From NCBI GenBank assembly GCA_001931905.2, contig MSJI02000881.1, positions 55,321 to 119,320 on the forward strand: 64,000 nucleotides of DNA. The letters are read 5' to 3'. The translations under genes and the position numbers were made by a program. Position 1 is the first letter of the stretch. Every line of letters begins with the position of its first letter. Positions 31,622-55,077 of this stretch are shown here, piece by piece. Under the pieces are notes generated by a model, which was not told where the DNA came from, searched no databases, and saw only the letters and a program-made list of their open reading frames with translations. The stretch comes from Cladosporium sp. IMV 00045 (lineage: Eukaryota; Ascomycota; Dothideomycetes; Cladosporiales; Cladosporiaceae).

Positions 31622-34600
31622 ATGTCCTTGCGACCATCAGAAGTCGCTGCCACAGCAATGGCACCCTTCAAGACCTCGTTCCTCATCCCAAACCTGCATT
31701 GTCCGACATGCATCAGCCATATCACTTCTCTCATTGAAGGACTGGAATCCCACGCGAGCATCTCAGACTTTTCATACATTAACCACGTCATCACTATCGC
31801 ACACGGCAGAGACCTTTCAGTTCATTCAATAAGCGACCTTCTCACCTCCGCCGGCTACGAGATTTTCGACATCATCGGCGACCCAGCCAACAAAGACAGG
31901 ATTTCTTACTCTTCGTCTCGCGACGCTCAGCTGGAAGACGCGGTCCAGAGATGGGAGCCTCGACGACACTCTCAGGTCGATGAGACTACGCGTCTGTTGC
32001 ACGACGCCAATTGCCAGATGTGTGCTGCTTCCGGTGGCCAGGGAGATCTTACGTCTGTCTTCGTGGATGATTCGGAAGACGCTACGCCGTCGTTCGTGGC
32101 GACGCTGTCTGTTGAGGGAATGACTTGCAGTTCCTGCGTGGGGAATGTGACGAAGGCATTGCAAGGGATTGCGGGCGTCGACCGAGCCGACGTTTCTTTG
32201 ATCGGGCACAGTGCGGATGTGCATTTCAGAGCCGACGATGCCGACGAAATTTCTAAAAAATCGGTGGAAGCCGTCGAAGATGCAGGCTACGACGCCCAAC
32301 TCGTCGAAGTGCGCCAATTACGGGCCACTGATCGAAAGGTCGTTGATTCAAGCGACAATTCCGAAGCTGTCGCCCCGAGGACCGTCTCTATCAAGATCGT
32401 GGGCATGCACTGTCCACAGTGTCCCAAACGAGTTGTGGAAAGAGTTCGAAATATGCAGGTCGATATCCAAAGCCTGCCAACGCTGGACGCACCAATACTC
32501 ACCGTCACATACACGCCCCAAGCTCCTAAATTGACGATTCGACGCATCCTAGACGACATCAGCTCCCTCGATCCTTCCTTCAAGGTTGCAATCCACAAGC
32601 CAGCATCCGTCGAGCAACGCTCTCGGGAGATGTTGGCAAAAGAGCAAAAAGCGATTTTTTTGCGCGCACTCCTTTCAGTCCTCACAGCGATACCTACCTT
32701 GATCATCGGCGTTGTCTACATGAACCTGGTTTCGAAGCACGACCCTGGTTACATCTACCTCATGCACCACGTGCACGGAGTCAGTCGCGCAGAGTGGGCG
32801 ACATTCGCCATGGCGACACCGGTATATCTCTTCGCAACGGATCATTTCCACAGACGCATGTGCAAGGAGATCTACTCGCTCTGGCGGCCACGCAGTCCAA
32901 TCCCGATCGCAAAGCGCTTCTATCGCTTTGGCAGTATGAACATGCTCATCAGCTTGGGGACTACGATCGCGTATTTTTCGTCGCTGGCTGAGCTGATCAT
33001 CGCTGCATCCAATCCTTCACAAGACCTGATCGGGAGCTCGAAGCAGTCATACTTCGACTCTGTGGTGTTTCTTACAATGTTCCTTCTCCTAGGACGACTG
33101 GCAGAGGCTCGCATGAAAGCGAAATCCGGCGACGCAATCTCCGCTCTCGGAAATCTCAGGCCGACAGAAGCTAATCTACTCACCTCGAAAGACGGCGAAG
33201 ATGCTTCGAGCATTGAGAAAGTCAACGTGGATCTCATCGACGTCGGTGATCTGGTCAGGATCCCGCACGGCTCGAGCCCGCCGTGCGATGGCACCTTGCT
33301 TGACGAATCTAGCAGTTTCGACGAATCGAGTCTGACGGGAGAGTCTCGGACCATTCACAAGTCGAAGGACGACAATGTCTACTCTGGTACCATCAACAAA
33401 GGCGCTGCTGTTACAATTCGCGTCACTGGTCCGGCGGGAGCTTCCATGCTCGATGCGATCATAGACGTCGTTCGTGAAGGCCAGTCCAAGCGCGCGCCGA
33501 TGGAACGCATCGCGGACGTTTTGACTGCTTACTTCGTGCCGGTGGTAGTCGTCATCGCCATTGCCACCTGGATCGTATGGCTCGCGCTCGGTCTTTCTGG
33601 TACACTTCCCAGAAGCTACCTGGACAATAATGTTGGCGGCTGGCCGTTCTGGTCCTTGCAATTTGCCATCGCAGTCTTCGTCATCGCATGTCCTTGCGGT
33701 CTCGGACTGGCTGCTCCGACGGCTTTGTTTGTTGGCGGAGGCCTGGCTGCCAAGCGTGGCATTCTCGTCAAGGGAGGCGGAGAGGCTTTCCAGGAAGCGA
33801 GTACTTTGGATGCTGTTGTTTTTGACAAAACCGGAACTCTGACGGAAGGTGTTGAGCCTAAGATCGTGCAGAATGCCATGCTGTCCAGCGGATCTGGCCT
33901 CGGCCGGGCGACTGTGCTTGGTTTGCTGAAGGGCGTTGAGGAATTCAGCGAGCATCCGCTCGCCAGGGCTGCTGTGAATTTTGCCGCTTCGGAAGGAGAC
34001 ACCGCTGCTATCGCAGTCTCCGCTGCGGACGAGATTGCAGGCAAAGGCTTAAAAGCAACCTTCGACCTCGTCCGTGATGGCGAGCCAGTTCAGCACGAAG
34101 TCTTAGTCGGCAACGAGCGTCTAATGCAAGACTACGGCGTCGCCATCCCCTCCGAAGCAGACGACCTCCTGACCGACTGGAAATCGATCGGCTACTCCGT
34201 CATGCTCCTATCAACCCGTAATCCCAACTCCCAATGGCACCTCGAAGCCATCTTCGGCGCCTCCGACCCCCTCCGCCCGGAATCCCGCGAAGTCGTCTCA
34301 GCGCTCCAAAAGCGCGGCATCGACGTCTGGATGCTCTCAGGCGACAACGCGAAGACGGCCAACGCCGTCGGGCGCGATGTGGGAATTCCACCCGACAACA
34401 TCATCGCCGGCGTGCTCCCCGCCGAGAAAGCAAGCAAGATCACCTTCCTGCAGCAATCCCTGCTGCCGCGCCGCGGCGTCGGCTTCCAGAACTTACTGAG
34501 CAGCAAGCGCGGCCGCGCGACTGTAGCAATGGTCGGGGACGGGATCAACGACGCGCCCGCCCTGGCCGTCGCGGATGTTGGAATCGCCGTCGCTGCTGGC

Positions 34601-34909
34601 TCGGATATTGCAGTGCAATCGGCGAGTTTCATCCTCATGTCTGACTTGCGCGGCGTGATGACGCTGATTTCGCTGAGTCGCGTGGTTTTCCGACGGGTAC
34701 TTCTGAATTTCTTCTGGGCCGCGCTGTACAATCTGGTCGCGCTGCCTGTCGCGGCCGGGGTGCTGTATCCGGTGCGGACGGGCGGTGTGGGCCACGTCAG
34801 GCTTGATCCCGCTTGGGCGGCGTTGGCGATGGCGTTGAGCAGTGTTACGGTTGTGGCGAGCAGTTTGCTTTTGCGCACAAGGGTGCCGGGGGTGGGGTTT
34901 CGTGGTTAG
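31622..34909 (+). CDS. Copper-exporting P1B-type ATPase
   Basis: This is a heavy-metal pump of the Ccc2/CtaA/CrpA type, which moves Cu(I) across membranes using ATP. One exon encodes 1095 residues from the ATG at 31622. Three HMA modules carry Cys-x-x-Cys: LHCPTC (27/30), MTCSSC (169/172) and MHCPQC (264/267); an extra CQMC lies at 131-134. The core has TGES (572-575), the CPC ion-binding motif (690-692), DKTGT with Asp735, the EHPLA motif and GDGINDAP. The first and third HMA modules depart from the GMTCxxC consensus. Single-exon structure is unusual in this window. The neighbour on the other strand is a DUF4396 membrane protein. A role in copper tolerance or loading of secreted copper enzymes is inferred. 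Confidence 0.95.
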   Translation: MSLRPSEVAATAMAPFKTSFLIPNLHCPTCISHITSLIEGLESHASISDFSYINHVITIAHGRDLSVHSISDLLTSAGYEIFDIIGDPANKDRISYSSSRDAQLEDAVQRWEPRRHSQVDETTRLLHDANCQMCAASGGQGDLTSVFVDDSEDATPSFVATLSVEGMTCSSCVGNVTKALQGIAGVDRADVSLIGHSADVHFRADDADEISKKSVEAVEDAGYDAQLVEVRQLRATDRKVVDSSDNSEAVAPRTVSIKIVGMHCPQCPKRVVERVRNMQVDIQSLPTLDAPILTVTYTPQAPKLTIRRILDDISSLDPSFKVAIHKPASVEQRSREMLAKEQKAIFLRALLSVLTAIPTLIIGVVYMNLVSKHDPGYIYLMHHVHGVSRAEWATFAMATPVYLFATDHFHRRMCKEIYSLWRPRSPIPIAKRFYRFGSMNMLISLGTTIAYFSSLAELIIAASNPSQDLIGSSKQSYFDSVVFLTMFLLLGRLAEARMKAKSGDAISALGNLRPTEANLLTSKDGEDASSIEKVNVDLIDVGDLVRIPHGSSPPCDGTLLDESSSFDESSLTGESRTIHKSKDDNVYSGTINKGAAVTIRVTGPAGASMLDAIIDVVREGQSKRAPMERIADVLTAYFVPVVVVIAIATWIVWLALGLSGTLPRSYLDNNVGGWPFWSLQFAIAVFVIACPCGLGLAAPTALFVGGGLAAKRGILVKGGGEAFQEASTLDAVVFDKTGTLTEGVEPKIVQNAMLSSGSGLGRATVLGLLKGVEEFSEHPLARAAVNFAASEGDTAAIAVSAADEIAGKGLKATFDLVRDGEPVQHEVLVGNERLMQDYGVAIPSEADDLLTDWKSIGYSVMLLSTRNPNSQWHLEAIFGASDPLRPESREVVSALQKRGIDVWMLSGDNAKTANAVGRDVGIPPDNIIAGVLPAEKASKITFLQQSLLPRRGVGFQNLLSSKRGRATVAMVGDGINDAPALAVADVGIAVAAGSDIAVQSASFILMSDLRGVMTLISLSRVVFRRVLLNFFWAALYNLVALPVAAGVLYPVRTGGVGHVRLDPAWAALAMALSSVTVVASSLLLRTRVPGVGFRG

Positions 34910-35622
34910 GTTTCGGTTGATTGATTGATCCCGGTTGTGGTATGAGTACCACTTTTTACCGATGGTTCCTAAGAGATAATGATTTAGATGAGAAACATGT
35001 AATAAAGTATCCATCGACAACGTCTGATCATGATTTTCAGCAGTTTTGGTTCATCAAGATATCATGACCGCTGGGATAGTTAGAGCCAGTGTTGAATTTC
35101 TCCGTGGGCTTGATACTCGTACTATCCGCTTCGGTGCCTCACAAGGATACCTTGACCGCTGGGATAGGTAAATTTAGGTAGCCACGATTTCATGTGAGAT
35201 GGCGGCGTTGAGAAAGCAGTGTCTCCGTGTCACTTGTGCTAGTACCATCGGCTTCGATACCCCCAGTTGATTCGTGACTACTGAAGTAGCTGTGAGTGAA
35301 TAACGTCGAGAAAGCAGTTTCTCCGTCTCATTTGTGCTGGTGCCATCGGCTTCAATACCCTTGATTAAGTCGTGACCACTGAAATAGCTGTGAGATCACT
35401 GTACTAAGAAAGGTGTTTAGCGCCGCTTTGGGTGATCCAGCATCTCAACCTCTTGACTTCATTTGCTTCGTAACTCTTCAGTGTGCTGCTAGATGTACAG
35501 GAATTCGTGAAAGACGCCCACAATAAATGCCCTCGCCACGCACTCGAATGCCAGGGGGTATTTGCACGCTCAAGCCAAAACAGGAATGGGAAAAAACGGA
35601 GGAACACAACCCATCCCCTCCC
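34910..35622. other. Intergenic with degenerate tandem repeat
   Basis: This stretch between convergent genes is filled mainly by the imperfect tandem repeat described separately. No gene was seen. Confidence 0.6.
35051..35400. repeat. Degenerate ~98-bp tandem repeat
   Basis: At least two clear copies start at 35207 and 35305 (period 98), sharing GAGAAAGCAGTNTCTCCGT, TTGTGCT, CCATCGGCTTC and TAGCTGTGAG. A third, more diverged copy starts near 35091, and a partial copy near 35051 repeats the TGACCGCTGGGATAG segment found at 35154. The copies differ by scattered substitutions and small gaps. Confidence 0.7.
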
Positions 35623-38600
35623 CTAAAACTCCTGAATCCCATCCACCAGCGCCGAAAGATCCTTCATGCGCACGGGTTTGGTGATGTACTTATCGATGCC
35701 GGCGCCTTTGGCGTTCCTCTTGGCTTCGGTGTTCGTGACCCCCGTGACGGCGACGATGTTGACTTTGCGAATCCTTTGCCTGCGCTCCAGCTCGCGGAAT
35801 TTCCGCGTCGCTTCGAACCCGTCCATGACCGGCATGTTCATGTCCATGAGAACGAGGAAGTAGTGCATGGGCGCCGCTTCGTATTTTTCGACGGCTTCGA
35901 GGCCGTTGACGGCGCTTTCGCAGGGCAATTTGAGTTTTCTCATGAGGGCGAGGAGAAGCTAGGAGGGTGGGTTAGTCAGCTTGAATTCTACTACATTTGG
36001 ATGATGTCTTGCCATTTTTGGACGGAAAGCCAAGTGGCAAGAGCATTGACAGTTGTCAGAGTCTACAGGAAGTGGTGACTTACTCTCATGTTGATATCGT
36101 TGTCTTCAACCAACAGTACGGATTGCCCAGTCTGCCTCTCGCGTATGCTTGAGGATCTCGCGAGGCTCGTCACCATGGTCGACTCGACGTTTGCTTTCTC
36201 TTCCGGTACTTCGCCTGCATCTTCGCCATCTCGTGCCTTGTCAAGTTGACTGGGAGCAGGATGTTGCTCTTCCGGGTTTTTCACTCTTGCAGGCAGCTGG
36301 AAATATGACTTGGCATCGGACTCCACCATGGGCGTTTTCTGCGAATGGTTCCGTATCATTCGAGTTGGTCTAGGGGCAGGCACCGCGTAGTCCTTTGGCT
36401 GTCTTGTGAGTAAAGAGTTCTGGACGCTATTCAGGACTTGTATGATCTTTTGCGGGCCGATGCTGTGAACGATGTCAGTCAAGTCCTCATTAAAGCTGAA
36501 ATGCATGAGAGCTTTGTGGAGGTAAACTAACGGCTGATACACATAAAGCGGCTTGAGAGCAAAATTCTCAAAATCAAACTCTGGTTCAACGCTTCTCACG
36601 GATTGGGCAAGAACCAAGATACGAGAGCAAGTACCAGCGAGGGTCGACATTAGTTGATCTACTGCATCTGGGTCTTGCCTATGAAGCAAAAGGAGGTCTC
36701 TTTCGGATACCGCGCAAACGGTGTCAAGCGGGCATGTAGAAGCGTCTTGGATGAAGCGTGCGTCGCATCCAAACCAACTTGAGACAGTCCGTAGGACGCT
36801 CTCGGCGACCGACCTGGCGCCAGGCATGTCTGTTTGCGGAACCTCTTTTTGCAAGTCCAGCATGCGAAAGTGTCTTGGGACGTTTTGAAAGGTCGGCTTC
36901 TTAAGGGCACTTCCTGAACCGGCGAGGGGGGCATCTGGGTGTCCGAAATTGGATATGAACTTGACAGTGACGACAGTGCCATGTCCCAGGTCACTTCTGA
37001 CGATGACTGAAGCATTCAAGTCTTTCGCGACCTCCTTGACGATGCTCATACCAAGGCCAGTTCCAGCAGCATGAGAATTGGCTTGTTTGAAGGCGGTGAA
37101 TAGACTGGCATCCACAAATTCACGCGACATGCCAATTCCCGTATCTCGCACTTGAAGGGTTACCAAGGTATCCGGGCTTTCTTCACCAGGTGAAGTAACC
37201 CCTTCGTCGGTATAGAGCTTCACGGATATGGAGCCCTTGTTGGTGAACTTGAGCGCATTGCCTGCGAGGGACATCAAAAGTCAGAACGAACATTTTGACC
37301 GTGGTGTAAGTTCTCACTTACCAAGAATATTCGTTATCAATCTTGTCACCGTGCCGGGCGTCATGGGAGTAATCCAATTTGGACGTTGCTCTATATCAAG
37401 GGTCACGGATACAGAACGTGCATCTTGCTGGTCTTGATCCTCGAACGCTCGTTGAAGGTGTCGATAGCCGGAAATGGTGCTTTCCACTACTCTACGAAAA
37501 GTTAGAGACATATTATCGGTTTCCGCAAGTCAGATTGATATACTCTTCCGTCAGTCGTGCGAGATCAACGTTGGTCAAGCCGCTGTTATCGCCTTGAGCG
37601 GTGGTTTTGTGACGTAGCGCATCTAGCCTTGCGCGGTCTTTCCTCTGTCCGCGTGATAAGTTGCTGACCTTGCTGTAGTCCAGAATGTGATCCACTCTAT
37701 TCATGGTCAGTGGTCAGGTGTACAACAAGCCAATGGCGTACTTACGTGTCAAGTAGAGTCCTGCCGGCAAGTGCCACAGACAAAGCCATCTCCTCTTGGA
37801 AAGCGGATAAGGGAGAGTCTTGAAGCATCTCAATCCCGGCGAGGATGCCATGCAACGGACTGCGCAGCTCATGGCTGACGGAAGTGATAAATCTCCCCTT
37901 TGCCACATCCGATGCGATTGTTTCGATGCGCGCCAACTCGGCTCTCAGGCTGTGAGCGAATGCAGACATGTAGGTCAAATCTTCATCTGGGTGGAAGAAT
38001 CTGGTGAAGCTTTTCGTCCAAACCAGCAAAACGGACCTCCAGCGTTCACGTTCAGCCTTGTATGTGTCAGCATAAAGCGGTACATACATGGGCAGAAGAA
38101 ACTCACATCCCAGATAGGATAAAATGCAATTGAGCCAGGTTGTCCCACTGCTTTCCTCAAGACTCGAGCACTGCGGCCATACTTCGACTGAACATGAGGC
38201 CATGAGCCTTCGGTGACCCCGGCAGATCCACTTGATCCTCCCTGGCCGTCTGAGCTAGAATAGGCACTGCCATCTTTCTTGAAACTGAATATCTTGCCGC
38301 GGGGATATGCCTTGATGAGCTTCGCCATATCTCGCTCGAGAAGCTCTACTCGAGCCGAACCAAGTGAGCCCTCTTCAACGCTCGGGGCTTGCGTGGATAT
38401 CGCCTCGGTTTTGCATTTGGATGATGGAACCGCTGAAGGGTCGGAGTGGTCAGTGTCGCTTGAAGCAATTGCTTCACCATCGTCTGAAGATCCTGAAGAT
38501 GTATTGTGTCCCGATGATCTTGTCGAGAAAACTTTACCGGCGTCGATGAAAGCAACACCAAAGGCACCCATCGATTCACGGAGGAGCTGGCTGGCTCGGC

Positions 38601-39909
38601 TGTAGGCTTCACTCACTTGGGTGTGTAGATCTGGTTTTAGAGCACAATTAGATGTTTTCCATGAGTGTAGGATCGCCTGCTTGCTTACCTGAGCTCTCGC
38701 TGCTTGTGGACTTTCCAGGAGAATCGGGCGAATTTGCGGTATTCGAGCTGGAGTCCTCACTCACTACACCGTTCTCGATGCGATCATCAGCCGCTTTCTG
38801 GTTGCCTTCGCCGGAGGAACGTGGATTTGTTTGATCTTGTCGGGGCTTGCGTGACCTTTCCAGTCGTATTGCTGCACGTGGCGACGAGCGGTCCTCTTCA
38901 GCACCGAATTCCGCATCAAATCTTTTATCTTGCTCGTGGCGGTTTTTTCCCGAATCATCCTCGCGGCCACCTCTTCTCATGCTGCTGTTGTCTTGACCCA
39001 CCCACCATTCTCGCAGAGAGCTGCCTCCATTGTTGAAAACACCCAGGGCTTGAATCAGTCGCTCGCTTCGCTGTCGCTGAGATTTAAAGATTGATGATTG
39101 GAGATGCTGTGCAATTGTATCGCCTAGATCTTCGCAGTAAGACATTTCCATGGCACTGACGCCATAGCGAGGTTTGTCATCCAAGACAGTCAGGCTCCCG
39201 ATAACAGTGCCTTCATGGTCACGTACAGGTATCGAGAAGTAAAAGCGAGGCGATTTTGCCCGCCTGACAAACTCGAGTTGCGCCGCGGTTGTGTTGTGCC
39301 TTAGGTCGCTAATGATATGCCAATGTGGCGAGCACCCTTCAGTGTAATAGTGTTCGTTGTCCGCAGGTACCTCGCGCAGTGAGCGCGCTTTCCGCCAACC
39401 ATCAAAGGAAAGATCATTCACTCCATCCGACCTTGCAAAGCTGCAGGTACCCAACCAACTCTCATCTTTTGGGTTCGCGACAAAATCTGACTGCAACGAC
39501 ATGCTCTTGGTGGACTCGACCAGAACGTGCTCGGTATGGCTGGTCATGATCGTGATGAAGGCCCGTCTGACGCCCAGACGGAGGGTGGCCAGCTGCGCAA
39601 ATGCGGCGAGAGCGGTATCGTTGCATGCTGCCGGTGCTGGGGTGGGTTGCTCGTGAGGAAAGGCATTGCGTTGGATGTATAGCGGTTTGTATAGCTCGGT
39701 CCAGGCGTGGAGATAGCTGCGGCGACAGCGTTAGTATGAATTGAGAGGATGCGCCCATCTATGTACAACCGATGGACATACCGCAGAGCTTCTCGCTCTC
39801 TGCTTGCTTCCGTCTTGTGTCGCAGAGCAAATCGATTACTCGCTAATGGGGTCGACATGCTCTTGGTTGCCCTATGTTGCTCGGGCACCCCACCACATTG
39901 CTTCTCCAT
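35623..39909 (-). CDS. Hybrid sensor histidine kinase (GAF-HisKA-HATPase-REC)
   Basis: This is a two-component sensor that autophosphorylates on His and passes phosphate to its own receiver, feeding the fungal phosphorelay. Eight exons give 1275 residues: 39909-39782, 39716-38689, 38630-38107, 38056-37746, 37696-37544, 37491-37322, 37261-36084 and 35958-35623; all phases agree. A GAF-like sensor lies near residues 60-220. The H-box SHELRSPLHG has His622. The ATPase shows GNALKFTNKG, DTGIGM and GTGLGMSI. The receiver begins LLVEDNDINMR, with phospho-acceptor Asp about 1203 in LMDMNMPVMDG and Lys in ITKPV. Long Ser/Asp-rich linkers separate GAF and HisKA. The signal is unknown. The start could also be the Met at 39858. 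The upstream neighbour is the NRPS-like gene, 326 bp away on the same strand. Confidence 0.93.
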
Positions 39910-40235
39910 GAAGGTCAAGGCTTTGGAGATGCTCTGAGCACAGACACATATGGTGAAATGTCGAGCATGTCATGTCCGCGATGCCCGTTTGCGATCGGCC
40001 ACTAATGCCGACTCCCCGAGGATCAACCTTCCATGATCGAGTTACCCACCGCTTATACGATAGTTTGGTCAAAGCCCAGCCCACGCTAAATTTAGGGGAG
40101 ATATTAACCGTATGCTACAATTAGATATGATAACTTCTATTAGTTATTAAACCTATCATACGATGGTTAAAGAACGCGTGAGTCAGCTCTTTGGGAAGGC
40201 GATTATGTTGAATAATGATGTTGCAATGACGGTAT
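39910..40235. other. Intergenic, histidine-kinase promoter
   Basis: About 330 bp between two minus-strand genes, AT-rich around 40085-40240. It should hold the kinase promoter and the 3' UTR of the NRPS-like gene. Confidence 0.5.
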
Positions 40236-43200
40236 CTATATACTGAGCATGTGCTTGAGGATTCCCTCGCACTCTCCAAGCACATCATCCGCACTCCGAA
40301 CGGCATCCACAGCAATCACATCAATCTCGTCATCCCGGGCGCCCTCAAGAAGATTGACTTGCGCATCAACCATACCAGGCGCCATATAATGGCCTTGTCG
40401 CTCCGACAGTCTAGACTTCAACTCCTCTCTGGCATCCGTCTCAAGCATTACAAAGACAGTCCGCAAACCAGCAATATCTTGCAGGGAGCGAAGCTCGTCC
40501 CGATAACTGCTCTTCAGCGCTGAACATGTTACTAGAACTGCAGGCGCCTTGGTTGAATTCAAACGGTCCATGACTGCGCCGCGAATGTGCGCAAGCCAGC
40601 TCATTCGGTCAGCATCAGTGAGCGGAATCTGACTGCCCATATTCTGGCGAGCTACCCGTGAGTGCATTTCATCGCCTTCGATCATAGGCACACCCAGCTT
40701 TTCGGCCAGGGAACGAGCTACTGTGGACTTGCCTGAGCCACACGGTCCGCCGATGATGATGACAGCCGGCTCGGCTTCTGAGGATGCTGCAGCAGACCAT
40801 CGCTTTCGAAGCTGCGTGACGATCCTGCCAACTATCTCGCCGTGAATGATACCAGCGTTCTGCAGAGAAGGAGAGAAACCCTGAGCACGTGATGTGGAGT
40901 GTGCGAGCGAGCGCCGCGGCTTGTCGTTGTCGTATTTGCTCGCGAAAAAGTCCACAAGCTTGATCGGAGGGTTCTTCGATGGGTCCTGCTCCGATGCTCG
41001 CAGGCGGCGAATCCATTCTTGCTGTGGAACTGCGTCGAATTGCAATCCTGCTTCTCTCAGCAACGGCAGCAGATCTCGTGTCCAATGGAAGGAGTTGTCG
41101 TTGACCACATTCATGACGCCGCTATCGGCTGCTGAACATGCAATTTCCGTGCATGCTCTCGCTACGACATCCACTGGCAGCCAGTACGGATTCTCATCCA
41201 GCGCAGGCAAAGCACCAATAGTCTGCGCTGTCTGGAAAATGAGAGGTATCGCCTCGGTATCGTTCCACACACCATGCTGCGTGTCTCCAATGATCTGTCC
41301 CACTCGCAGAACGCGAGCCTTTACACCAGTCTGTCGAGATGCTCGGTTGCAAAGATGTTCCGTGACCAGCTTCGACTGCGCGTATCCCATGCCTTGCGCG
41401 TAGCTGTACGACTCCGGCAATGCTTCAGGAACAAGATCTCCCGGGGTAGCAGCTGTGGCAGAGACGGATGAGCAAAAATTGAACGATGCTGGCTCAGGGC
41501 GCTTGGCAGCGAGGCAAAGGTTGATGAGATTCCGCGCTCCGGCGATGCAGTCGGTTTCGAAGCTCTCCAGGCCTTTGTTGAAGTTTACTGACCAGGCAAG
41601 ATGAAGCAGATGGGTGATCGAGCCACTGATCGCATCATAATCCCCTTGCTCGAGGCCAAGAGAAGCATCGTCGAAAGCAGAAGGCAGTGCCACGATTTTC
41701 GATCTCGACGAGAGAGATAGCTCGTGGTAAAGAAGTCGCTCTCTGAGTGATTCGTACACCCTAGAGCGGGCGGACTCTTTGCTTCCTGCTCTGACAAGAC
41801 AGTACACCCTCTGCACAGAACACTGAGACGCCAGATTTGCGACCACGTGTGCACCCAGAGATCCAGTGGCTCCGGTGACGACCTACGAAAGTCAGTGAAA
41901 ATGTCGCTTCTGTGGCAATGGACAAGAATTGCAATACTTACAACGTATTTCCCCGTCGCTTTGTTCTCCACGGGCAAATGCTGGGGGAACTTGGCATACT
42001 TCTCAATCATTGCAGAGATGCGATCCTCCACACTCATGACCTCTCGCTCAGGACCGCCCGACTGTAACCGGACGATTTCATTCGCCATTTTTCCCAACGT
42101 AGGGAAGTCGAAAACAAAATTGCGGCCAATGCCCTCCGCATCAACCTTGAGGTGTTGGAGGATGAAACTGCGGACCTGAATTGCTTGCAGAGAATCAACT
42201 CCGAGACTGAATAAGTCGGCATCCTCGTTGAGCACGGTGCCCTCCTTCAGTTGCACCCGGGTTTGCATCTCTTTCCTCAAGAATTGCACAAGCTCTTCTC
42301 TGGGCAGCACCAACGTACCGGACTGCTTGTCGACGTATGCGGCTTCTATCTGCTTCGAGAAGTCACGGTAGAATGCAGCGCGGATGACCGTTCCTTTGTC
42401 TGTCCGTCGGTAGTCGGTGTCTCTCGGCAGCAATTTAATCATATCCCTAGAGAGCTGGGAGTAAGCCGCCACGCTTCCGTTCATCTGCTCGATTTGAGGC
42501 ATGACAGCGTCGATGATATCTGCATCTTGCAGGTCTGAGGTCGTAGCTGGGATTACAAAGGCTCCGAGACGAGCCTTATTGGCGCCGAAGACCACAACTT
42601 CTGCAACATTTGCATTCTGACGAATGACGCCTTCAACGAGCAACGGATTGGCCTTCTCTCCGTTTTCCAGCACAATCGTGTCGTCCAAGCGAGCGTAATA
42701 CTTCCAAGCATCGGGAATCTTCGGATGAGGTTCGAAGAGATCCTTGGTTGCATAGGACCCATCTTCCCTGTTGGTGGCTACCTTCGAACCCCAACCCTCC
42801 ATCACACAGAGCTCGTAGAGATTAGGGCCTCGCAACTCCATGCTGAGGTATGGTTTGAGATGCGGAGGTACTCTAAGCCAATCCCAACCCTTGTCTTCTC
42901 TGTGGTTGCGGAACGATGTCATGCATTGGCCGACTTCGGTAGCACCATAATGTCCGACGAGATTGACGCCATTGTCGACAAGCCTGTCACCGATCGGTTT
43001 GGGGCAAGCGGAGCCTCCGAACATGACAATCTCAAGTCGACTCAGCAGCTTCAAGCCCTCTTCTGTCTCGCTCAGGAGCTTCAGAGCGTAAGGTACACCG
43101 TACAAGATCTGAATGTCGGGATGGTCCGTTAACGTCGCGACAAGGTGCTTGCTCGCAAGCGGCAGACGTGCGTTGTAGATGTAGATCCTTTTCCGGGAGT

Positions 43201-43981
43201 GAATGGCCCGGAAGAAACAGCAAATGCCGTGATTGTGGTACAGTGGCAGAGTGATGTGCCCGACCATGCTGAAGTTCTGGCTGTACGTGTATAGTGCCGC
43301 GCGATGGGTTTGGGAGATTGGTTTTGGCAAACCAGTCGATCCGCTTGAGTGGATGATGAAGCAGATATTGTTCGTCTCGCGCGCTGGGTCAAGCATCGCA
43401 GGCTTCAAAGTCTGTGATGATTCCGATGCTGTTGAGGCTGTGTATATGGTTGTAGTCTTCAACGATGGCAGTTGTCCTGACACAGCCTCGGCGTTCGAGG
43501 AGAAGTTCTCCTGGTGGATCAACGCAGTTGCATGTGTGCTCGACAGAAGAGACTCATATGCTTCGTCGGTTATCCTGGTCGAAAGTAGGAGCGCGGAGTG
43601 TCCCAGCCTGGAAATGGCGAGGAATGCCACCAGGTAATCAAGATCGGAGTTTCCCAAAAGCCCTACGACCTGCACAGCGTCATCCGAGCTGAGCCTTTGC
43701 GGGATCAATTGACTGTAATGCACAGCGGCTCGTTCCACAAGACGATCCAGTTGTTGCGGAGAGTAGTCGACATAGTTGGTGCTTTCGTGTGGGTAAGCAA
43801 CGATAGGCTGATCGAATCCCTTTTGTCGTGCTCGGAGGGCAATGAGCTCATTGATCGTTGAAGGAATCTTGTTCTCAAGAGCCTCATATCCAGACACATC
43901 CTCGGCGATCTCAATGGTCTCAACATCAAGTCTCGACTTAAGCGCGCTGAGAGGCGCACTGGGTGGAAGTACAGCTGCCAT
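40236..43981 (-). CDS. NRPS-like A-T-R enzyme fused to a gluconokinase-type kinase
   Basis: Exons 43981-41942 and 41882-40236, with a 59-bp intron, give 1228 residues. The adenylation domain has HSSGSTGLPKP (211-221) and GHYGATEVGQ. The carrier domain has LGVDSLQ with Ser597 for phosphopantetheine. The thioester-reductase domain starts with VTGATGSLGAH and has the YAQSK pair (about Tyr847/Lys851). No condensation domain exists. From about residue 1055 the same exon continues into a gluconokinase-family domain: P-loop GGPCGSGKST, EGDEMH, GSQIPLTDADRMSWL, CSALKSSYRDELR and a GHYMAPGMVDAQ segment. An A-T-R enzyme activates an acid and reduces it to aldehyde or alcohol; the fused kinase could phosphorylate the product, which is inference. 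The fungal A-T-R-R enzyme ATRR reduces glycine betaine, and the neighbours here fit such a substrate. An in-frame ATG at 44044 is an alternative start. Confidence 0.93.
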
Positions 43982-44495
43982 TCTGATCGAGTGGCTTGTG
44001 ATCGAAAGCGGAGAGTGAGACGACCTTCTTGCTACAAATACCATTGTTGCGGAGATGCAGAGTCGCAGTCTCGAGCCAGATACCCACCACGATCGGCATT
44101 TGCAGACGACGGGACAAGCGGAAATTATCGTTAACCGTACTGGATAACAATTACTGCCTTTTCCGCTTCCAAATCCACACTCTCCGCCATGCGGCTCACC
44201 ATTTCCGCTCGTATCCGCACCCTCGGCACTTCACTCGGAGTCACATCTGCACCTTTCTCACGCATGATCCCTCAGCAAACATGCTTGTATCCGCCAACAT
44301 GTTGCTTCAAAGAGGCTTGACTCCACGGCGGGGCCCCGGATAACGCTCTCTCCGCATTACCGGGGAAGTCGATATATAGTCGCCGAGTCGAGCGCCATGA
44401 CCCAAGATTGCTTCGTTATCTTAGCACACCAGACCTCACTCTCGACCAATCCATTTGAGCCGCGATACTAAGCGTCTTGTCTTTTGACAGCCAAG
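43982..44495. promoter_or_regulatory. Divergent promoter of NRPS-like gene and permease
   Basis: This 514-bp region serves both genes. It contains an inverted repeat CCCCGG (44334-44339) and CCGGGG (44360-44365) with a 20-bp spacer, the style of site bound by Zn2Cys6 regulators, a GATAA element at 44339-44343 (AreA-type nitrogen control) and a TATA-like GATATATAG at 44371-44379 facing the permease. Confidence 0.45.
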
Positions 44496-46304
44496 ATGAC
44501 CTCCCACGCCGCCGATCGAACGTCGCTCCACTCGCTCGACAAAGACCTTGAGAAGGTCGACTATGTCGAAGTCCAACACAACAAGTATGCCAATATTGGC
44601 CTTACAGCGGAGGAGACCGACTTCTATGAGAACTTTCCGGAGGACAAACGCAAGAAGATGGTTCGAAAGGTCGATGTTCGACTCGTCCCTGTGCTAGCAC
44701 TGCTTTACCTTGCTGCCCATATTGATAGGGCCAACATCGGAAACGCGAAAGTATGTTGCTATCCTAGTGCCAGGATCTAGTTTTTGTTTGCATGTTCAAA
44801 AGTGCTAATTGAGGTGTAGATTGAAGGCATGGTCGAAGACCTCAACATGACTGGAATCCAGTACAACATCGCACTTTCCATCTTCTTTATCCCGTACATT
44901 CTACTTGAAGGTCCGTGTAGTGTCCCAGAGATGATGTGACAACGAATCCTTCTCCGTTTACTAAAGTTCAATGTGGACAGTTCCATCGAACATCATCCTC
45001 AAGAAGTTCAAGCGACCATCGACCTACATTGGCATCCTTGTCGTCTCTTGGGGCATTGTGATGACTTTCACAGGAATGGTCAAGAATTTCGCCGGATTGA
45101 TGGTTTGTCGCGTCCTTCTCGGTGTGGCTGAGGCCGGATTTTTTCCAGGTGCAGTCTATTTGATTACTCGATGGTCAGCCCTCTCACACATTATCACAAT
45201 GCAGAAGACGCCAGTTCTAACATTGCATCCAGGTACGGACAACGCCAAGTCCAGACCCGTCTCGCATTGTTTTATTGCGCCTCTGCCCTGTCCGGTGCAT
45301 TCTCTGGCCTTCTCGCATTCGCAATTGCCAAGATGGACGGTGTTGGCGGTCGACCAGGTTGGGCATGGATATTCCTTCTGGAAGGCATCGCGACTGTACT
45401 TATCGGCGCCGCTTGCTTCTTCATCATGCCCGATACGCCTGCGCTCTCCGGCAGGTGGCTTAATGCTGAGGAGACGAAGTACTTTGCCATCCAGACAATG
45501 ATCAAGAATGGCGGAAGAGCTGCATCAGAGAAAGCGGACAAGTTCAAGTGGTCTTACCTGATCGACCTTGTCACCGACTACAAGGTCTACCTGCAGGCTT
45601 GGATCTTGTTTACAGCTTCCGTTTGCGCTTATGGTAAGACGAAACGCACCTCATTCCTATCTGGTCCGTGCTGACACTCTTCAGGCCTCAAATTCACCAT
45701 GCCTTCTATCACCAAATCCATGGGATATACTTCCTCTCAGGCCCAGCTATTGACAATCCCCCCTTACGTGGCCGGTGCTATCTCTGCAGTCACTCTCTCC
45801 AAGCTCGCAGACCGCTTCAACTGGCGTATGCCCTTCATCCTCGGCCCAATGACGTCGGTTCTCGTTGGATTCTGCATCCTCCTACCTCTCGCCAGCAATA
45901 TCGAGAACCAGATCGCTGCTTGCTACATCGGTGTCATGTTAATCTGTATCGGCCAGTACCCCACCAATCCTGCGGGCTCTGCTTGGATTTCAAGTAACCT
46001 CGCTGGCGATTCGAAGCGTGCAATGGGCATAGCTCTGAACATCTGTTTGGGCAACAGCGGAGGCATTTTGGGGTCATACATGTTCCTCGATTCAGAGAAA
46101 GAGATTGGTTACCCGACCGGCTTCAGCATTGGCCTTGCTTTCGCTGCTCTCACACTGATTGGCACGGTTGTGCTTGAATGGTCGTATTCGAGCATCAACA
46201 AGAAGAGAGACGCCATGGACGAGGACGATATCAGGGCCAAGTACACCGATGAGCAGCTTGCAAGACTGGGAGACAAGAGCCCGTTGTTCAGGTACAAACT
46301 GTAA
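44496..46304 (+). CDS. MFS permease, Dal5/allantoate-type anion:cation symporter
   Basis: A 12-helix major facilitator of the ACS family (Dal5, Tna1 relatives), probably importing an organic anion or zwitterion through the plasma membrane. Exons 44496-44750, 44820-44910, 44981-45173, 45233-45633 and 45685-46304 splice in frame to 519 residues. The first helix has LLYLAAHIDRANIGNAK, typical of the family, then LMVCRVLLGVAEAGFFPGAVY and AWIFLLEGIATVLIG. The second half shows SSNLAGDSKRAMGIALNICLGNSGG. The cytosolic tail is charged. The gene is divergent from the NRPS-like enzyme and probably co-regulated with it, which suggests uptake of that enzyme's substrate; this is inference. The ATG at 44496 starts directly after the leader; no upstream ATG is in frame. 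Confidence 0.93.
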
Positions 46305-47190
46305 GAGATATCTGGAAAGATATGGAGAACGGCATGGGAAGTCTTGAGCTTCTGCTGCTGCACCATGCTTGGGAATTTGACTGTTGGCCACGAAGTTATG
46401 AAGAGCGAGCGTCAGGTTCGAGAATAACTGAGACATTGCAAGATTGTACGTGTTGATTTGTAACTCGTTCTTTGCTTGTGCGATCGCTTCACATCTGCGC
46501 TCATTCCAATCCGAGCTTAGACTGAATGCCATTTGTATCGCCATGCACTGAAAGACGATCGAAATCCTTGGAACTATTCGATAGCGACTTTGGCACTGAT
46601 ATCACGGGAGGTCGTGAAAAGCGAAAAGTTCGTTCTACATGGGACACTCATCGATCGCAACCTTAACCTCCCAATGCCCGGATACTTAAAAGAATATACC
46701 TGAACAATCTGTCGGAAGCGAAGGTCGGTAGCTCTCGGCAGATCAACAAGCGACGGATGTCTCAACTTGAACGGAGTTCTCGCCCGCCACGTTTTCCACG
46801 TATCCGCTGGGAAGCCGTCCTCCGACAATGCATGATGGATTGTGTAGCGGGTTTCACGAGATGAATGGCTGCTTCGATACAGCATGGTGGTGAATCTGGG
46901 GCAACAATAAACGAAAGACATCGTGGTGTTGGTCATTTCACCAGACCAACAATGATATCGTATGTATTCGGAGGTGGTTCGTCGATACGTGTCTAATGTG
47001 CCATTCTGTATTGCAGTCTTTAGACATCGTAGTTGTGTATCCACTCTTAAAACCACTGATTTGGGCCGCCGTCAACTCATCATGTCGCACGATTTAGTAT
47101 TCATATCGTTCATACGATTCATTGCCACAATATCCCATCCGAAGTTCGAAGAAGCATTAAACCCACTTCTTGCGTGGTTTGCAGGCCGAC
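46305..47190. other. Intergenic, no supported gene
   Basis: About 0.9 kb. A minus-strand frame at 46574-47056 (160 codons) has no recognisable family motif and is not called. Nothing else was seen. Confidence 0.5.
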
Positions 47191-47192
47191 AA

Positions 47193-47830
47193 TAAGAGTT
47201 CTCGAGCTTACCCCAACCCTAACCCTAAATTTTCTCTCTAAGACCTTTCACTACTCTATAGTATCGGTGCAAGTACCGGCCCTTTTAGTACGCTCAGAAT
47301 ACAGTGAACCATTGAGATTCAAGGTTAAGATACTAAGCTTCTTCTATAACATTATTATAAGTATCTACTACCTTAGTTCTCCTAACCTAATACGTTACTA
47401 CTAAGATAAAGTTTAGGATTAATCCTCTTACCGTAGTATTAATGCAAATATTAGCTGCTCTAGTACACTTAACCGCTACTCTAATCAATTAGGATATATT
47501 TAAGTATATTACTAAATGCTATAAGCGTCTTAATACTTGTTTTAATGAGACTTAAGGTGAATATTTCTATAATATACTAATATAAACTAATTATTAATCT
47601 TAACGCGTTAGTAAGTAAGAGTTCTCGCAATCTATAGAGTTATTCTTCGGGCTTTCAAACGGTGAAATTAATCTCTACTATCTATATACAAACTATTAGT
47701 TAGTAAAACGGAGATCGATTAAAGTTCTGTCTTTCACTAGTAATAGTAGTACTATAAAATACGATCGAAGCCTAACCGACCTATAGAGTATTTGTACTCT
47801 CTTCGAATCTGGTATAACAGTTTCGTCAAA
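47193..47830. repeat. AT-rich island with interstitial telomere repeat
   Basis: The island begins with CCCCAACCCTAACCCTAAA (47211-47229), a short run of the TTAGGG telomere repeat, then becomes strikingly AT-rich, with many TpA steps to about 47830. The 12-bp sequence TAAGAGTTCTCG occurs at 47193-47204 and again at 47626-47637, bracketing the first part. A diverged internal duplication of about 45 bp (near 47260-47305 and 47433-47478) differs mainly by C-to-T and G-to-A changes. This resembles a RIP-mutated subtelomeric or transposon remnant; no coding remnant was recognised. Confidence 0.65.
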
Positions 47831-47912
47831 ATAATAAACGCGACCAATCATTTGACTGATCACGGAAGAGCCGCCAAAGATACATGGATACGATCAACGC
47901 AAAAAGTAAGAC

Positions 47913-47917
47913 AAAAA
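47913..47917 (-). terminator. Pol III terminator of tRNA-His
   Basis: A run of five T on the minus strand begins four bases after the tRNA discriminator; a second T5 run lies at 47901-47905. Both fit RNA polymerase III termination. Confidence 0.6.
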
Positions 47918-47921
47918 GATA

Positions 47922-48019
47922 TGGCTTTGCCGTGAGTCGAACACGGGGAAGCACGGAATCATCAGAAAATTCATTTTTCTTTGCCACAACGTGCTATGTT
48001 ACCACTACATCACAAAACC
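47922..48019 (-). tRNA. tRNA-His(GUG): tRNA-His (anticodon GUG) with 27-nt intron
   Basis: A complete cloverleaf was folded by eye on the minus strand. The acceptor GGTTTTG pairs with CAAAGCC (one G-U), the D stem ATGT with ACAT, the anticodon stem GCACG with CGTGC, and the T stem CCGTG with CACGG around TTCGACT. The anticodon GTG is at 47985-47987. A 27-nt intron (47957-47983) follows the base 3' to the anticodon, the standard position for nuclear tRNA introns. The mature length is 71 nt with discriminator A; the extra 5' G of tRNA-His is added after transcription. The stems are intact, so this appears functional. It lies just right of the AT-rich island. Confidence 0.9.
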
Positions 48020-48315
48020 GATGACGGTGATCGAGCTTTACAGAAAATATACTGACAAAATTGAGAGGCTGGGACTTGATTCCCCCGCTCAACCCTGAAT
48101 CAGAGTTGATTTGCAGGCAGACGAATGAAAATTAGAGATAATTGTGGAATGTGTACACGTCAGACGAACATGTATGCATAATACACAAACATGCTAGATG
48201 ATGTTGTCACCAACAAGTATTTGTTGATTGATTGAAAGCGAGTTTCATCGTACGCGAGAATGGCGCAAATGGTGATGCCAAGAGCCGCTGCCGTCGTCGG
48301 AGCACTCTACACGTC

Positions 48316-48648
48316 ATGATGGCTGGCCACGATGCACTCGCGATTGATCAGATCCGTAACCGCCATGGGTTTGTCGCTGCGACATTCGTCGTGAAACGCA
48401 TACTTGACATTATGGACCAAGAGCGCTCCAACTCTTTGCTATCGGCATACCGCTATCCGCTCCTCTTTGTGGCATGGGCGTCAGTGACGGGGTTGGCGTT
48501 TCTCCGGGTCTCGCGGCAGCCTTACAATGCACGCATCAAGTCAGAGCAGTACGAGACAATCTTCAAAGGCACATCGCTTGCGGCTGCGCTGATAGGCATG
48601 GGCCTGAGCGGTACTCTGAACAAACGACGGAGCGAAGTTGCCGCGTGA
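48316..48648 (+). CDS. Possible HIG1-domain (Rcf2-like) small membrane protein
   Basis: A 110-residue frame from the ATG at 48316. The C-terminal 70 residues hold two hydrophobic helices: YRYPLLFVAWASVTGLAFL, then FKGTSLAAALIGMGLSG, separated by a polar loop with Pro, Lys and Gln (RQPYNARIKSEQYETI). This spacing resembles the HIG1 domain of mitochondrial supercomplex factors such as Rcf2, but the match is by pattern only and the usual longer N-terminal half is absent. It may be a truncated copy, or its first exon may lie upstream. The Met at 48412 is another possible start. Its position next to a tRNA and an AT-rich island makes a gene fragment plausible. Confidence 0.45.
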   Translation: MMAGHDALAIDQIRNRHGFVAATFVVKRILDIMDQERSNSLLSAYRYPLLFVAWASVTGLAFLRVSRQPYNARIKSEQYETIFKGTSLAAALIGMGLSGTLNKRRSEVAA

Positions 48649-51835
<3,187 letters not shown>

Positions 51836-53776
51836 TGATTTTATGATAGTATATAGTCACGTTAATGCATGGAATGTTCTTCTGTTGTTGTTGATCTTGT
51901 CTGCTGTTCATCGGATCATACCGTGTCGTGCGGCGTAGAGTTTCGGCAGTGTTCGCATGTTGACCCTTTCGCCGCTACTATTCTCGTGATGAGTATGTTG
52001 CCATGCGTTCAGTGGGTGGATCAGGGTCAGGATTCACCACACGGTCGTCGTTCTGCTCGGGTATGGCGTTCTGTCGGCCGTGCCGTTGTCGATGAAATGA
52101 GATCTAATTGGTGCTGCGCCATGCACGACATCAAAGTCCCGAGAGAAGGATTCTACACATGGCGAACCCTGAGGCAAGATACTTGAGGCGCGATACCTGT
52201 TCCTGATGTGTCTCCAGTCTTTGAGATGTTTCGGTTGCGAAGGCTCCCAGGTGCACTGTTTCCAGGGAAAAGTTCATAGATTTCGACAGCGGTGCTGTTC
52301 ACCCTCACATACATGGGATCAAGTGCATGAGTGTCGTATATCGCCAGGTGAATGTCACATACGATACCGACAGAAGTTCACGCACAGGTTGATGGCATGT
52401 AGTGTAGTCAAAGGACTCAGGGCGAGTGAGGGCGGAGCAGTGACAAAACACTAGCGGCGGGTATCCCCGAGCGAATCAATTCCATCCCAGAATGGTCTTT
52501 CCTAAAAGGGTTTCAACATCCACATTCACTTCACTGACGCGTCTAGACCATGATTGCCTACCCATCACAGATCTGCTGCTTCAAACGTGGGAATCGGCAC
52601 CTGGCCCTGGCCTGCAGGTGTGCATCAATTTTACTTTTGGCGTCTGAATATTCCAAGTGCGGACCATTGATCCTCGCAGTGGATCACTGCCTTACTGACC
52701 TCACTTCTTACGATGTGCATCCACTTCCTGGTCTGGCCCGGAACTCTCAACCACCGCATTCATGGTCGATCCAAAATTGGTATCAAGAGGCGTGTTATGC
52801 GCATCGAGGGTGAGCGTGGCACATGGGGATGATCTTCGCCCCCTGGACTGGTCCTGGTTCCAGCTGGCTGTAATCTGGCAAGATACGATGACCATGGCCA
52901 GGTGATCTGATCATGATGGCATCAAGCAAGAGCGGTGACATGGGTCACAGAGTCTGATAAGGATCTTGTGATTCTATCAGGCAGAGTGTACGAAACTCTG
53001 TAGCTGTAATGGGAAAGCCTTTGGCTCGTCTGGTCACTTGCCAATCGCCACTGGTGTCGCTATCGCCGAGAAACGTGGGTGAAGCGAGGACGAAGCGAAG
53101 GGATCATCGCAGTACGCGCCCGACAGTGTTGACTCCTTACTGAATCGCGCTGCCCGAACGTATCGGCGTCTCTGTGGGAGACTGCGTCTTCTCGTGATAG
53201 CGCAGATGGTGCTATCGGTTGGTTCGTTACGAACTCTTCAAAGAAGGCGCAAATAATCTCTCATGGGGAATCTTGGATCCTTACAGGGAGCACCAAATGT
53301 TCATTTCAGGCAGTCAAGGATCATTTTCGCCAAATGGCACTCCTAATGGACTGCTAGACGCGCAGTCGACCTTGATGAAACCGTTTCAGTGGGTTCGTGA
53401 TATCAATCACGCTGTCAGGTATGCGATGTCAAGCCACATTGGGAAGCAGGATGATAGCTCAAGCAAAGATAGCTTATTCGGCGCGACCAGGCAGTTCCGG
53501 TGACGTTTCTGTATCGTAAAGATTATGTGGCGGCGTTTCCAGAAACGGATCCCTATCCAGTCCAGGGCTCACCTGCGAATTGCACGGACGCGCTAACCCC
53601 ATGGGGCTTCACGGTCCATATCAATACATCAAGAGCACAAAAATATATATAGGACTGTCAGAATGGCTTTGTCTGTACTGATACATCCTCATCAACAAGC
53701 TTTCAAAAACAAAAGCATCTTCATCCTCACATCACATTCACAGTCGACAAACTCCACCGTCGATCAGGATATCAAG
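51836..53776. other. Intergenic, promoter of the Rieske gene
   Basis: About 1.9 kb with no supported gene. A TATA-like ATATATATAG lies at about 53643-53652, roughly 125 bp before the chosen start at 53777. Short frames here lack motifs and were rejected. Confidence 0.5.
53643..53652 (+). promoter_or_regulatory. TATA-like box of the Rieske monooxygenase gene
   Basis: ATATATATAG sits 11 bp before an ATG at 53663 and about 125 bp before the ATG at 53777. Since transcription starts downstream of the TATA box, this argues for the second ATG as the real start. Confidence 0.5.
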
Positions 53777-55077
53777 ATGACTTCATTCCTCAACTACATG
53801 GGCATGGGCACCAAGCCCCCTGCAGACGAAGGCAAGGAGTCTGCTGTGCGCGCTCTGCCTGGCGAGTGGTACACCTCTCAGGAGATGTACGAGCTGGAGA
53901 GGAGAGCCATCTTCTCTCGCAAGTGGCAACTCATCACCCACAAGGTCCGCCTCACCAACCCTGGCGACTACCTCAAGTTCAACGTCGCCGAGTACGAGTT
54001 CATCCTTGTCAAGGACAAGGACCACAACATCAACGGCTTCCACAACGTCTGCCGTCACCGTGCCTTCCCTGTTGTCACCGAGAACAAGGGCACCTCCAGA
54101 ATCTTCTCCTGCAAATACCACGGCTGGTCTTACGGTCTCAACGGCAAGCTTGCAAAGGCTCCTGGCTACCAGGAGTTGTCTGGATTCGACAAGGAGAAGA
54201 ACGGTCTCCTCCCCATTCACACCCGCATTGACAACAACGGCTTCGTTTGGGTCAACCTCGATGGCAAGGAGAAGCCCGAGATCTCCTGGGAAGAGGACTT
54301 TGAGGGCATCGACACTCAGGAGCGTTACAGCCTCTACAACTTCGCCGACTACGAGTTCGACCACTTCTGGGAGATGGACGGCGCCTACAACTGGAAGATT
54401 CTTGCAGACAACTACAACGAGTGCTACCACTGCGCAACCACTCACCCCGACATTCCCGCTCTTGCGGATCTCAAGTCTTACAACGTCAAGACCAGAGACA
54501 TGAACATTATCCACGACGCTGCGACCACCGACGAGCAGCGCGAAAACGGTCTTACCGTTGCCAGCACATACTACTGGCCCAACGTTTCCACTAACGTTTC
54601 GTAAGTCTTGCCACCAACAATTGACTATCATGTACTCCTACTGACAACCTTTCTAGTCCCCACTTCTTCATGATCCAGCGCTTCGTGCCTAACGGCCCCG
54701 TCAGCTCTTCCATGCAGTACCAAGTTTTCCGCAACAAGAACTCCACCGACGAGCAGTTCGATCTCGTCAACCAGATCTACAAGCGCATCATGTCTGAGGA
54801 CAAGTACCTGTGCGAGTACGCACAGAAGAACATCAACGCCGGTGTCTTCGTCAACGGCGAGATGCACCCGCGCCTTGAGAAGGGCCCGCTCTACTTCCAG
54901 AAGCTTTGCCGCGACACCGTCACCGCTCACCACGAGCGCGAGAAGGCCGCAAAGAAGGAAATCTGGCCCGCCAAGCAGCAGCTGCCTAATCAGCCCAACT
55001 CCGGCGTGAGCAAGAAGGACATCGACTTCTGCCAGGGCTTGACTTGCCCGGCCACCCAGGAGGGCTTGGCTTGGTAG
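53777..55077 (+). CDS. Rieske choline/glycine-betaine monooxygenase-like
   Basis: A ring-hydroxylating-type oxygenase alpha subunit with a Rieske [2Fe-2S] centre and a mononuclear iron site. Exons 53777-54600 and 54657-55077 join over a 56-bp intron to give 414 residues. The Rieske ligands are Cys92/His94 (CRHRAFP) and Cys112/His115 (CKYHGW). The iron site is in DNYNECYHCATTHPD, with His218 and His223, and the upstream Asp/Asn bridge. This pattern fits the choline monooxygenase and glycine-betaine demethylase group. It would convert choline to betaine aldehyde, or betaine to dimethylglycine plus formaldehyde; the second fits the adjacent dimethylglycine oxidase. No dedicated reductase gene is next to it. 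The codon use is strongly biased to C-ending codons, suggesting high expression. Confidence 0.92.

Follow-up and report, generated by a model that had tools for sequence, protein, structure and literature searches.

Why should a protein built to activate, tether and reduce a carboxylic acid end in a kinase of the gluconokinase family, and does it do so as one polypeptide? The question is raised by a two-exon gene (43981..40236, minus strand) of Cladosporium sp. IMV 00045, located in a 64,000-nt stretch of contig MSJI02000881.1 that was analysed as a whole (the window, within which all positions are counted). Its 1228-residue product is composed of adenylation (A), thiolation (T), thioester-reductase (R) and gluconokinase-family domains, all encoded on the minus strand. 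Exon 1 (41942..43981, 680 codons) contributes the A domain (42329..43825, residues 53-551, matching AMP-binding at 53-361 and AMP-binding_C_3 at 433-551) and the T domain (42080..42238, PP-binding at residues 582-634), with the phosphopantetheine serine, Ser597, in a GVDSLQ motif. A 59-nt GT-AG intron (41883..41941, GTAAGT...TTTCGTAG) separates it from exon 2 (40236..41882, 548 codons and a stop), which leads from a thioester reductase of the Male sterility family (41154..41879, NAD_binding_4 at residues 682-923, catalytic Ser819, Tyr847 and Lys851) to the kinase (40275..40760, residues 1055-1216 by TIGR01313, with AAA_33 at 1054-1182), whose P-loop GGPCGSGKST spans 40722..40751 (residues 1058-1067).

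A sequence-only reading of this DNA had described a single exon running from the R domain into the kinase, and splicing 43981..41942 to 41882..40236 bore this out, the frame of exon 2 showing no interruption between the Rossmann motif of the reductase and the stop codon behind the kinase. The length, coordinates and strand it gave, and the motifs GGPCGSGKST, EGD, IPLTDADR and CSALK, were likewise all present, and the domain search it had proposed for the 1228-residue product recovered AMP-binding, PP-binding, reductase and AAA_33/gluconokinase matches. The AMP-binding, PP-binding and Male sterility/thioester reductase families appear in A-T-R order, all above their Pfam cut-offs, while the reductase scores 184.5 against TIGR01746, below the cut-off of 213.35. 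No second, SDR-type reductase domain follows R in the domain search, its place being taken by the kinase, which passes the curated cut-off of the GntK/IdnK-type gluconokinase model TIGR01313 (139.2 bits versus 113.75) and falls below that of the stricter equivalog PRK11545 (98.4 versus 265). The predicted structure of exon 2 has a mean pLDDT of 93.2 and a pTM of 0.91, and Foldseek matched its kinase portion to 3t61, 1ko5 and 1knq; the kinase fold assignment rests on Foldseek, since the 50 rows listed by a second structure alignment of exon 2 were all reductase or SDR-type folds.

The same genome contains a second copy of the gene (G000:C69), also in two exons, collinear in its neighbours and free of gaps relative to the window coding sequence, with a 60-nt intron at the identical position and 93% identity over exon 2. 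Comparison of the two copies (Nei-Gojobori) indicated purifying selection on the gene, with a dS of 0.36 and a dN/dS of 0.081 overall, and values of 0.074, 0.083, 0.061 and 0.074 for the A, T, R and kinase domains, respectively; the linker between R and kinase evolves fastest of all (dN/dS 0.355, an estimate based on just 14 changes). The duplication extends beyond the gene, as the 49.9 Mb genome holds a collinear second copy of window positions 34001-51630 in pieces of 83-94% DNA identity and one of 72%, which is expected of a hybrid or duplicated genome.

A survey of orthologs, suggested by the sequence-only reading, found that the fusion recurs widely. Relatives were gathered by a search with the kinase region among proteins 0.55 to 1.75 times the whole length, returning 82 proteins (78 A-T-R-kinase and four other kinase proteins), and by a search with the A-T-R portion, the best 120 of 888 matches of which comprised 75 with a kinase and 45 without (29 A-T-R and 16 A-T). 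Among the 151 long relatives so collected, 102 have all four domains (although eight of these match A or kinase incompletely), 29 are A-T-R, 16 A-T and four kinase only, a fused share that is inflated because 78 of the 102 were found with the kinase itself as query. Four-domain carriers span four ascomycete classes, two of these (Sordariomycetes and Leotiomycetes) by one named protein apiece, and include Aspergillus, Penicillium, Talaromyces, Hortaea, Elsinoe and Aureobasidium as well as Saxophila (Dothideomycetes), Neophaeococcomyces (Eurotiomycetes), Parathielavia (Sordariomycetes) and Rhexocercosporidium (Leotiomycetes). Recurrence in 102 of 151 relatives, together with the second copy in the same genome, places the fusion far beyond chance. 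As judged from sequence conservation, the A-T-R-kinase fusion is thus a genuine single-protein architecture, widespread and apparently active. Databases already hold this architecture under the automatically assigned names 'gluconokinase' or 'NRPS-like'. No reductase-kinase relative was confirmed among bacteria, archaea or viral contigs, in a search that is weak because its patterns were taken from this family's own reductase motifs. Among the relatives that lack the kinase, ten of the 16 A-T proteins are 684-691 residues long, consistent with gene calls that stop at the intron, and 28 of the 29 A-T-R proteins stop 44-58 residues past the reductase match. Gene models may be at fault in some of these rows: P0269 carries a partial mark, P0225, the remaining A-T-R protein, stops within the reductase match, and P0258 looks merged.

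The kinase itself bears the marks of a working enzyme. Of the 103 fused rows, among which the window is counted, 102 retain every one of 15 kinase signature positions, the exception, P0078, being a truncated sequence, and the P-loop residues Gly1059, Gly1062, Gly1064 and Lys1065 are present in all 103. Mutated kinase residues were sought in the orthologs and not found, so that the domain looks active; a pseudokinase was rejected on this conservation and on the dN/dS values. Its ancestry was addressed by a tree in which 33 fused kinases were set beside 22 standalone enzymes (those with a named source being bacterial), one standalone enzyme of the fungus itself and two other fusions. In this tree the 33 fused kinases form one group (support 91/48, weak on the second measure), which joins the genome's own standalone gluconokinase with support 100/97; by this phylogeny the fused kinase is gluconokinase-derived and kin to the fungus's own standalone enzyme. 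The kinase tree and the A-T-R tree are similar in their main clades, suggesting that the two halves were fused once, long ago, and have since been inherited together. In the A-T-R tree, a quick one built without bootstrap and with a root resting on one long outgroup row, the kinase is absent from 24 of 58 labelled rows, requiring 11 changes. The earliest branch below the outgroup carries it, making repeated loss the likelier course, and the kinase was therefore likely ancestral and then lost in some relatives.

Catalytic conservation is accompanied by change at the acceptor loop. The standalone comparison set consisted of the best 120 of 758 matches minus P0083-P0092, left out since at 56-76% identity they look like fragments of fused genes; the fungal standalone controls among these 110 rows and beside them are the genome's own two copies only, no named fungal standalone gluconokinase appearing among the 120 matches listed. 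The substrate-loop asparagine (HPxxN) occurs in none of the 103 fused rows, where position 1091 is Ala (63), Ser (39) or Thr (1), as opposed to Asn in 98 of 110 standalone rows and, by eye, in both own standalone copies. At the next position, 1092, Arg is found in 90 of 103 fused rows and Val or Ile in 104 of 110 standalone rows, and position 1088 is Ser in 86 of 103 versus Pro in 85 of 110. A retained catalytic machinery combined with an altered acceptor loop suggests a different acceptor, and the kinase substrate is probably no longer, or no longer only, gluconate. Two gluconokinase-like genes that stand alone and have P-loop exons (C826 and C885) are also retained in the genome, so the fused kinase is not needed merely as a gluconokinase. 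A GP..G.GK form of the P-loop, considered as a signature of the fusion against the 110 standalone rows, was dropped, because GPAGCGKT occurs in the standalone enzyme of the fungus as well; being common to the own standalone and the fused kinases, this departure from the bacterial enzymes is fungal and not derived from the fusion.

The A-T-R half offers its own indications of the acid. Across 132 rows (29 A-T-R and 103 A-T-R-kinase, window included) the reductase tyrosine is universal, the carrier serine and the reductase lysine are each conserved in 131, and a 64-row alignment shows Ser819, Tyr847, Lys851, Gln876, Glu890 and Phe781 to be invariant. By our own mapping, these six R residues correspond to active-site residues of the fungal carboxylate reductase NcCAR named in the available part of its report (PMC10168641). 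Searches for the substrate of the A domain gave little direction: the matches of the solved-structure sequence search were weak and unspecific, lying among aryl- and acyl-CoA ligases and enzymes like them, and the fold comparison gave no substrate pointer, its best rows being a tie between malonyl-CoA synthetase, MenE, feruloyl- and 4-chlorobenzoyl-CoA ligases and a plant oxalate-CoA ligase. The pocket was mapped by motif alignment and PheA numbering, in which an aspartate at the A4 motif holds the amino group of alpha-amino acids. This aspartate is found in none of the 127 rows with a residue at that position, where Ala, Asn or Gly stands instead, while the genome's LYS2-like protein has it; an alpha-amino acid substrate is thereby disfavoured. 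His251 (127 of 127), His344 (129 of 129) and Gln352 (130 of 130) do not vary, whether a kinase is present or not. Taken together, the missing aspartate and these three residues favour a polar, non-alpha-amino acid, probably a small one. The pocket is the same in forms with and without kinase, suggesting that both use the same acid, and the 29 kinase-less A-T-R relatives with this pocket imply that the kinase is either not essential to A-T-R or supplied by another protein.

Among known systems, the protein has A-T-R in common with the fungal carboxylate reductases (NcCAR, type III), but NcCAR, in the part of its description available, ends after R at residue 1052, where here a kinase follows. 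Like the glycine betaine reductase ATRR (A-T-R1-R2) it carries an extra C-terminal domain after R, in this case a kinase and not an SDR. To gluconokinases GntK/IdnK (1knq, 3t61) the kinase is alike in fold (target-normalised TM 0.82-0.87) and in the P-loop, GD..H, M, PL.D.DR..WL, CSAL, R..R and Q..LE elements; it differs in being fused to A-T-R, in the change of HPxxN mostly to H[ST]xx[AS], and in that of the following Val/Ile to Arg. A Fulvia fulva protein that bears the name adenylate-forming reductase Nps10 (P0207) is 68% identical over A-T-R and has the same A-domain pocket, yet it ends 44 residues past the R match, where the kinase would start. The sequence-only reading knew of no described A-T-R-kinase, and this stands as far as the literature matches listed go: none appears in their titles or abstract openings, a set mostly outside subscription papers, and the word 'kinase' is absent from the main text of PMC9605436, PMC8582187 (Synthaser), PMC2823734 and PMC10168641. 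A-T-R enzymes serve in the production of aldehydes and, according to the accessible part of a survey of 84 CARs, some fungal clades have no known member, clades IV and VII having had no known CAR (PMC9605436).

How might the two halves work together? The reading we prefer, that of a bifunctional fungal enzyme reducing a small polar acid and phosphorylating the same metabolite, has about an even chance of being correct. The A domain would use ATP to turn a carboxylic acid, small, polar and without an alpha-amino group, into an acyl-adenylate, the T domain would hold it as a thioester, and the R domain with NADPH would release it as an aldehyde, possibly reduced further to an alcohol. With ATP as donor, the kinase would then phosphorylate a hydroxyl on this metabolite (in the simplest case, on the product once it is released), so that a reactive aldehyde or alcohol ends up trapped as its phosphate ester. 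The reductase domain of NcCAR can go on from aldehyde to alcohol, as stated in the part of its report available (PMC10168641), so the chemistry would allow a sequence from acid through alcohol to phosphate. A metabolite shared by the two halves and handled in this order seems a reasonable supposition, although each half could act on a molecule of its own, and the 29 A-T-R relatives that lack the kinase count against this reading. A narrower version, a self-contained carboxylate-to-phosphate-ester enzyme that reduces and phosphorylates a hydroxy or sugar acid to a sugar-phosphate-like product, is put forward tentatively, with the balance somewhat against it. If true, it would represent a new salvage or biosynthetic step across Pezizomycotina, including Aspergillus and Penicillium, overlooked because databases name the protein gluconokinase or NRPS-like; if the halves act in sequence, a complete cascade leading from acid to phosphate ester would occur naturally within one protein. 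The built-in kinase also narrows the search for the substrate, which should bear both a carboxyl group and a phosphorylatable hydroxyl, and it offers an assay with two readouts, loss of NADPH and gain of ADP, in culturable species such as Aspergillus niger.

Other readings of the same domains deserve consideration. The kinase may be tethered for purposes of localisation, regulation or ATP economy, the A-T-R metabolite not being its substrate, an unlikely reading with which its repeated absence in relatives (the 24 of 58 labelled rows and 11 changes noted above) and the rapid evolution of the linker, estimated from its 14 changes, are in keeping, but which is countered by the retention of both halves on one polypeptide, with intact catalytic residues, in four fungal classes (two of them by one named protein each). 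Alternatively, phosphorylation could come first, the kinase making a phospho-aldonate (e.g. 6-phosphogluconate) whose carboxylate A-T-R reduces to a sugar phosphate in aldonate salvage. The TIGR01313 score and the retained core gluconokinase motifs speak for this order of events, and the invariant His251, His344 and Gln352 are plausible for a polar acid; it is nevertheless quite improbable, given the loss of the HPxxN asparagine in 103 of 103 fused rows and the presence of standalone gluconokinase-like genes in the genome. To our knowledge, moreover, no adenylating enzyme for phospho-aldonates is known.

The gene neighbourhood bears on a further possibility, raised by the sequence-only reading, by which glycine betaine would be converted through choline to phosphocholine on one protein. 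Upstream and divergent lies a likely major facilitator transporter of several exons (44496..46304, plus strand), one exon of which scores 23.2 bits against Sugar_tr (cut-off 22.3) and 33.3 against MFS_1, just below 33.4; it also adjoins the second copy. It is followed by an N,N-dimethylglycine oxidase (FAD and GCV_T; 49334..51835, plus strand) that matches the solved dimethylglycine oxidase 1pj5, from Arthrobacter, with 1194 bits, far above the 308 bits obtained with the dimethylglycine dehydrogenase 4pab. The oxidase possibly reflects horizontal transfer or a little-noticed fungal family. Beyond it is the first large exon of a Rieske oxygenase (53663..54604, plus strand), whose best solved-structure match is carnitine monooxygenase. 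Between transporter and oxidase, window positions 46305-49252 (2.9 kb) have a GC content of 0.44 and a TA/AT ratio of 0.81, as against 0.55 for the window, and for about 1 kb of this interval identity with the second copy falls to 72%.

These betaine-type neighbours, some 5 to 11 kb away and seen in this genome only, are what recommends the betaine route, the more so as the oxidase also lies beside the second copy (G000:C69:3-2297); that contig breaks off within the oxidase, and no Rieske oxygenase was found on it. As catabolic genes of this type do not fit a sugar-like acid, they also count against the preferred reading of an acid reduced and then phosphorylated. The betaine route is highly improbable all the same. 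The genome holds a separate A-T-R-SDR protein at G000:C224 (L027:2191-5388, minus strand; AMP-binding, PP-binding, NAD_binding_4 and adh_short) and a second copy of it at G000:C27 (L026:2630-5824), 99% identical over 1065 residues, and A-T-R-SDR is the architecture given for glycine betaine reductase in the available parts of PMC11050029 and PMC8403587. The present product lacks a second reductase domain and its kinase is of gluconokinase type; betaine as substrate, and with it the route to choline phosphate, is thus not supported. Finally, a fusion arising from merged gene models or an assembly join is scarcely credible in view of one unbroken exon, a second genomic copy at 93% identity over exon 2, and 102 fused relatives from several sources, which also make separate R and kinase transcripts unlikely and which, with the second copy, led us to reject an artefact or chance join.

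Domains of both halves were also encountered in other combinations. The Aspergillus egyptiacus protein P0258 (1354 residues) has a complete-looking aldo-keto reductase (AKR) N-terminal to A-T-R and no kinase; it may be a true AKR-A-T-R fusion or result from a merger with the gene next door, and in either case hints that the aldehyde may be reduced further. Gluconokinase-type domains were seen in four other long proteins, once together with the TRAP-transporter-type Pfam domains PF06808 and PF04290 (P0079), and three times with PF12014 (P0080-P0082).
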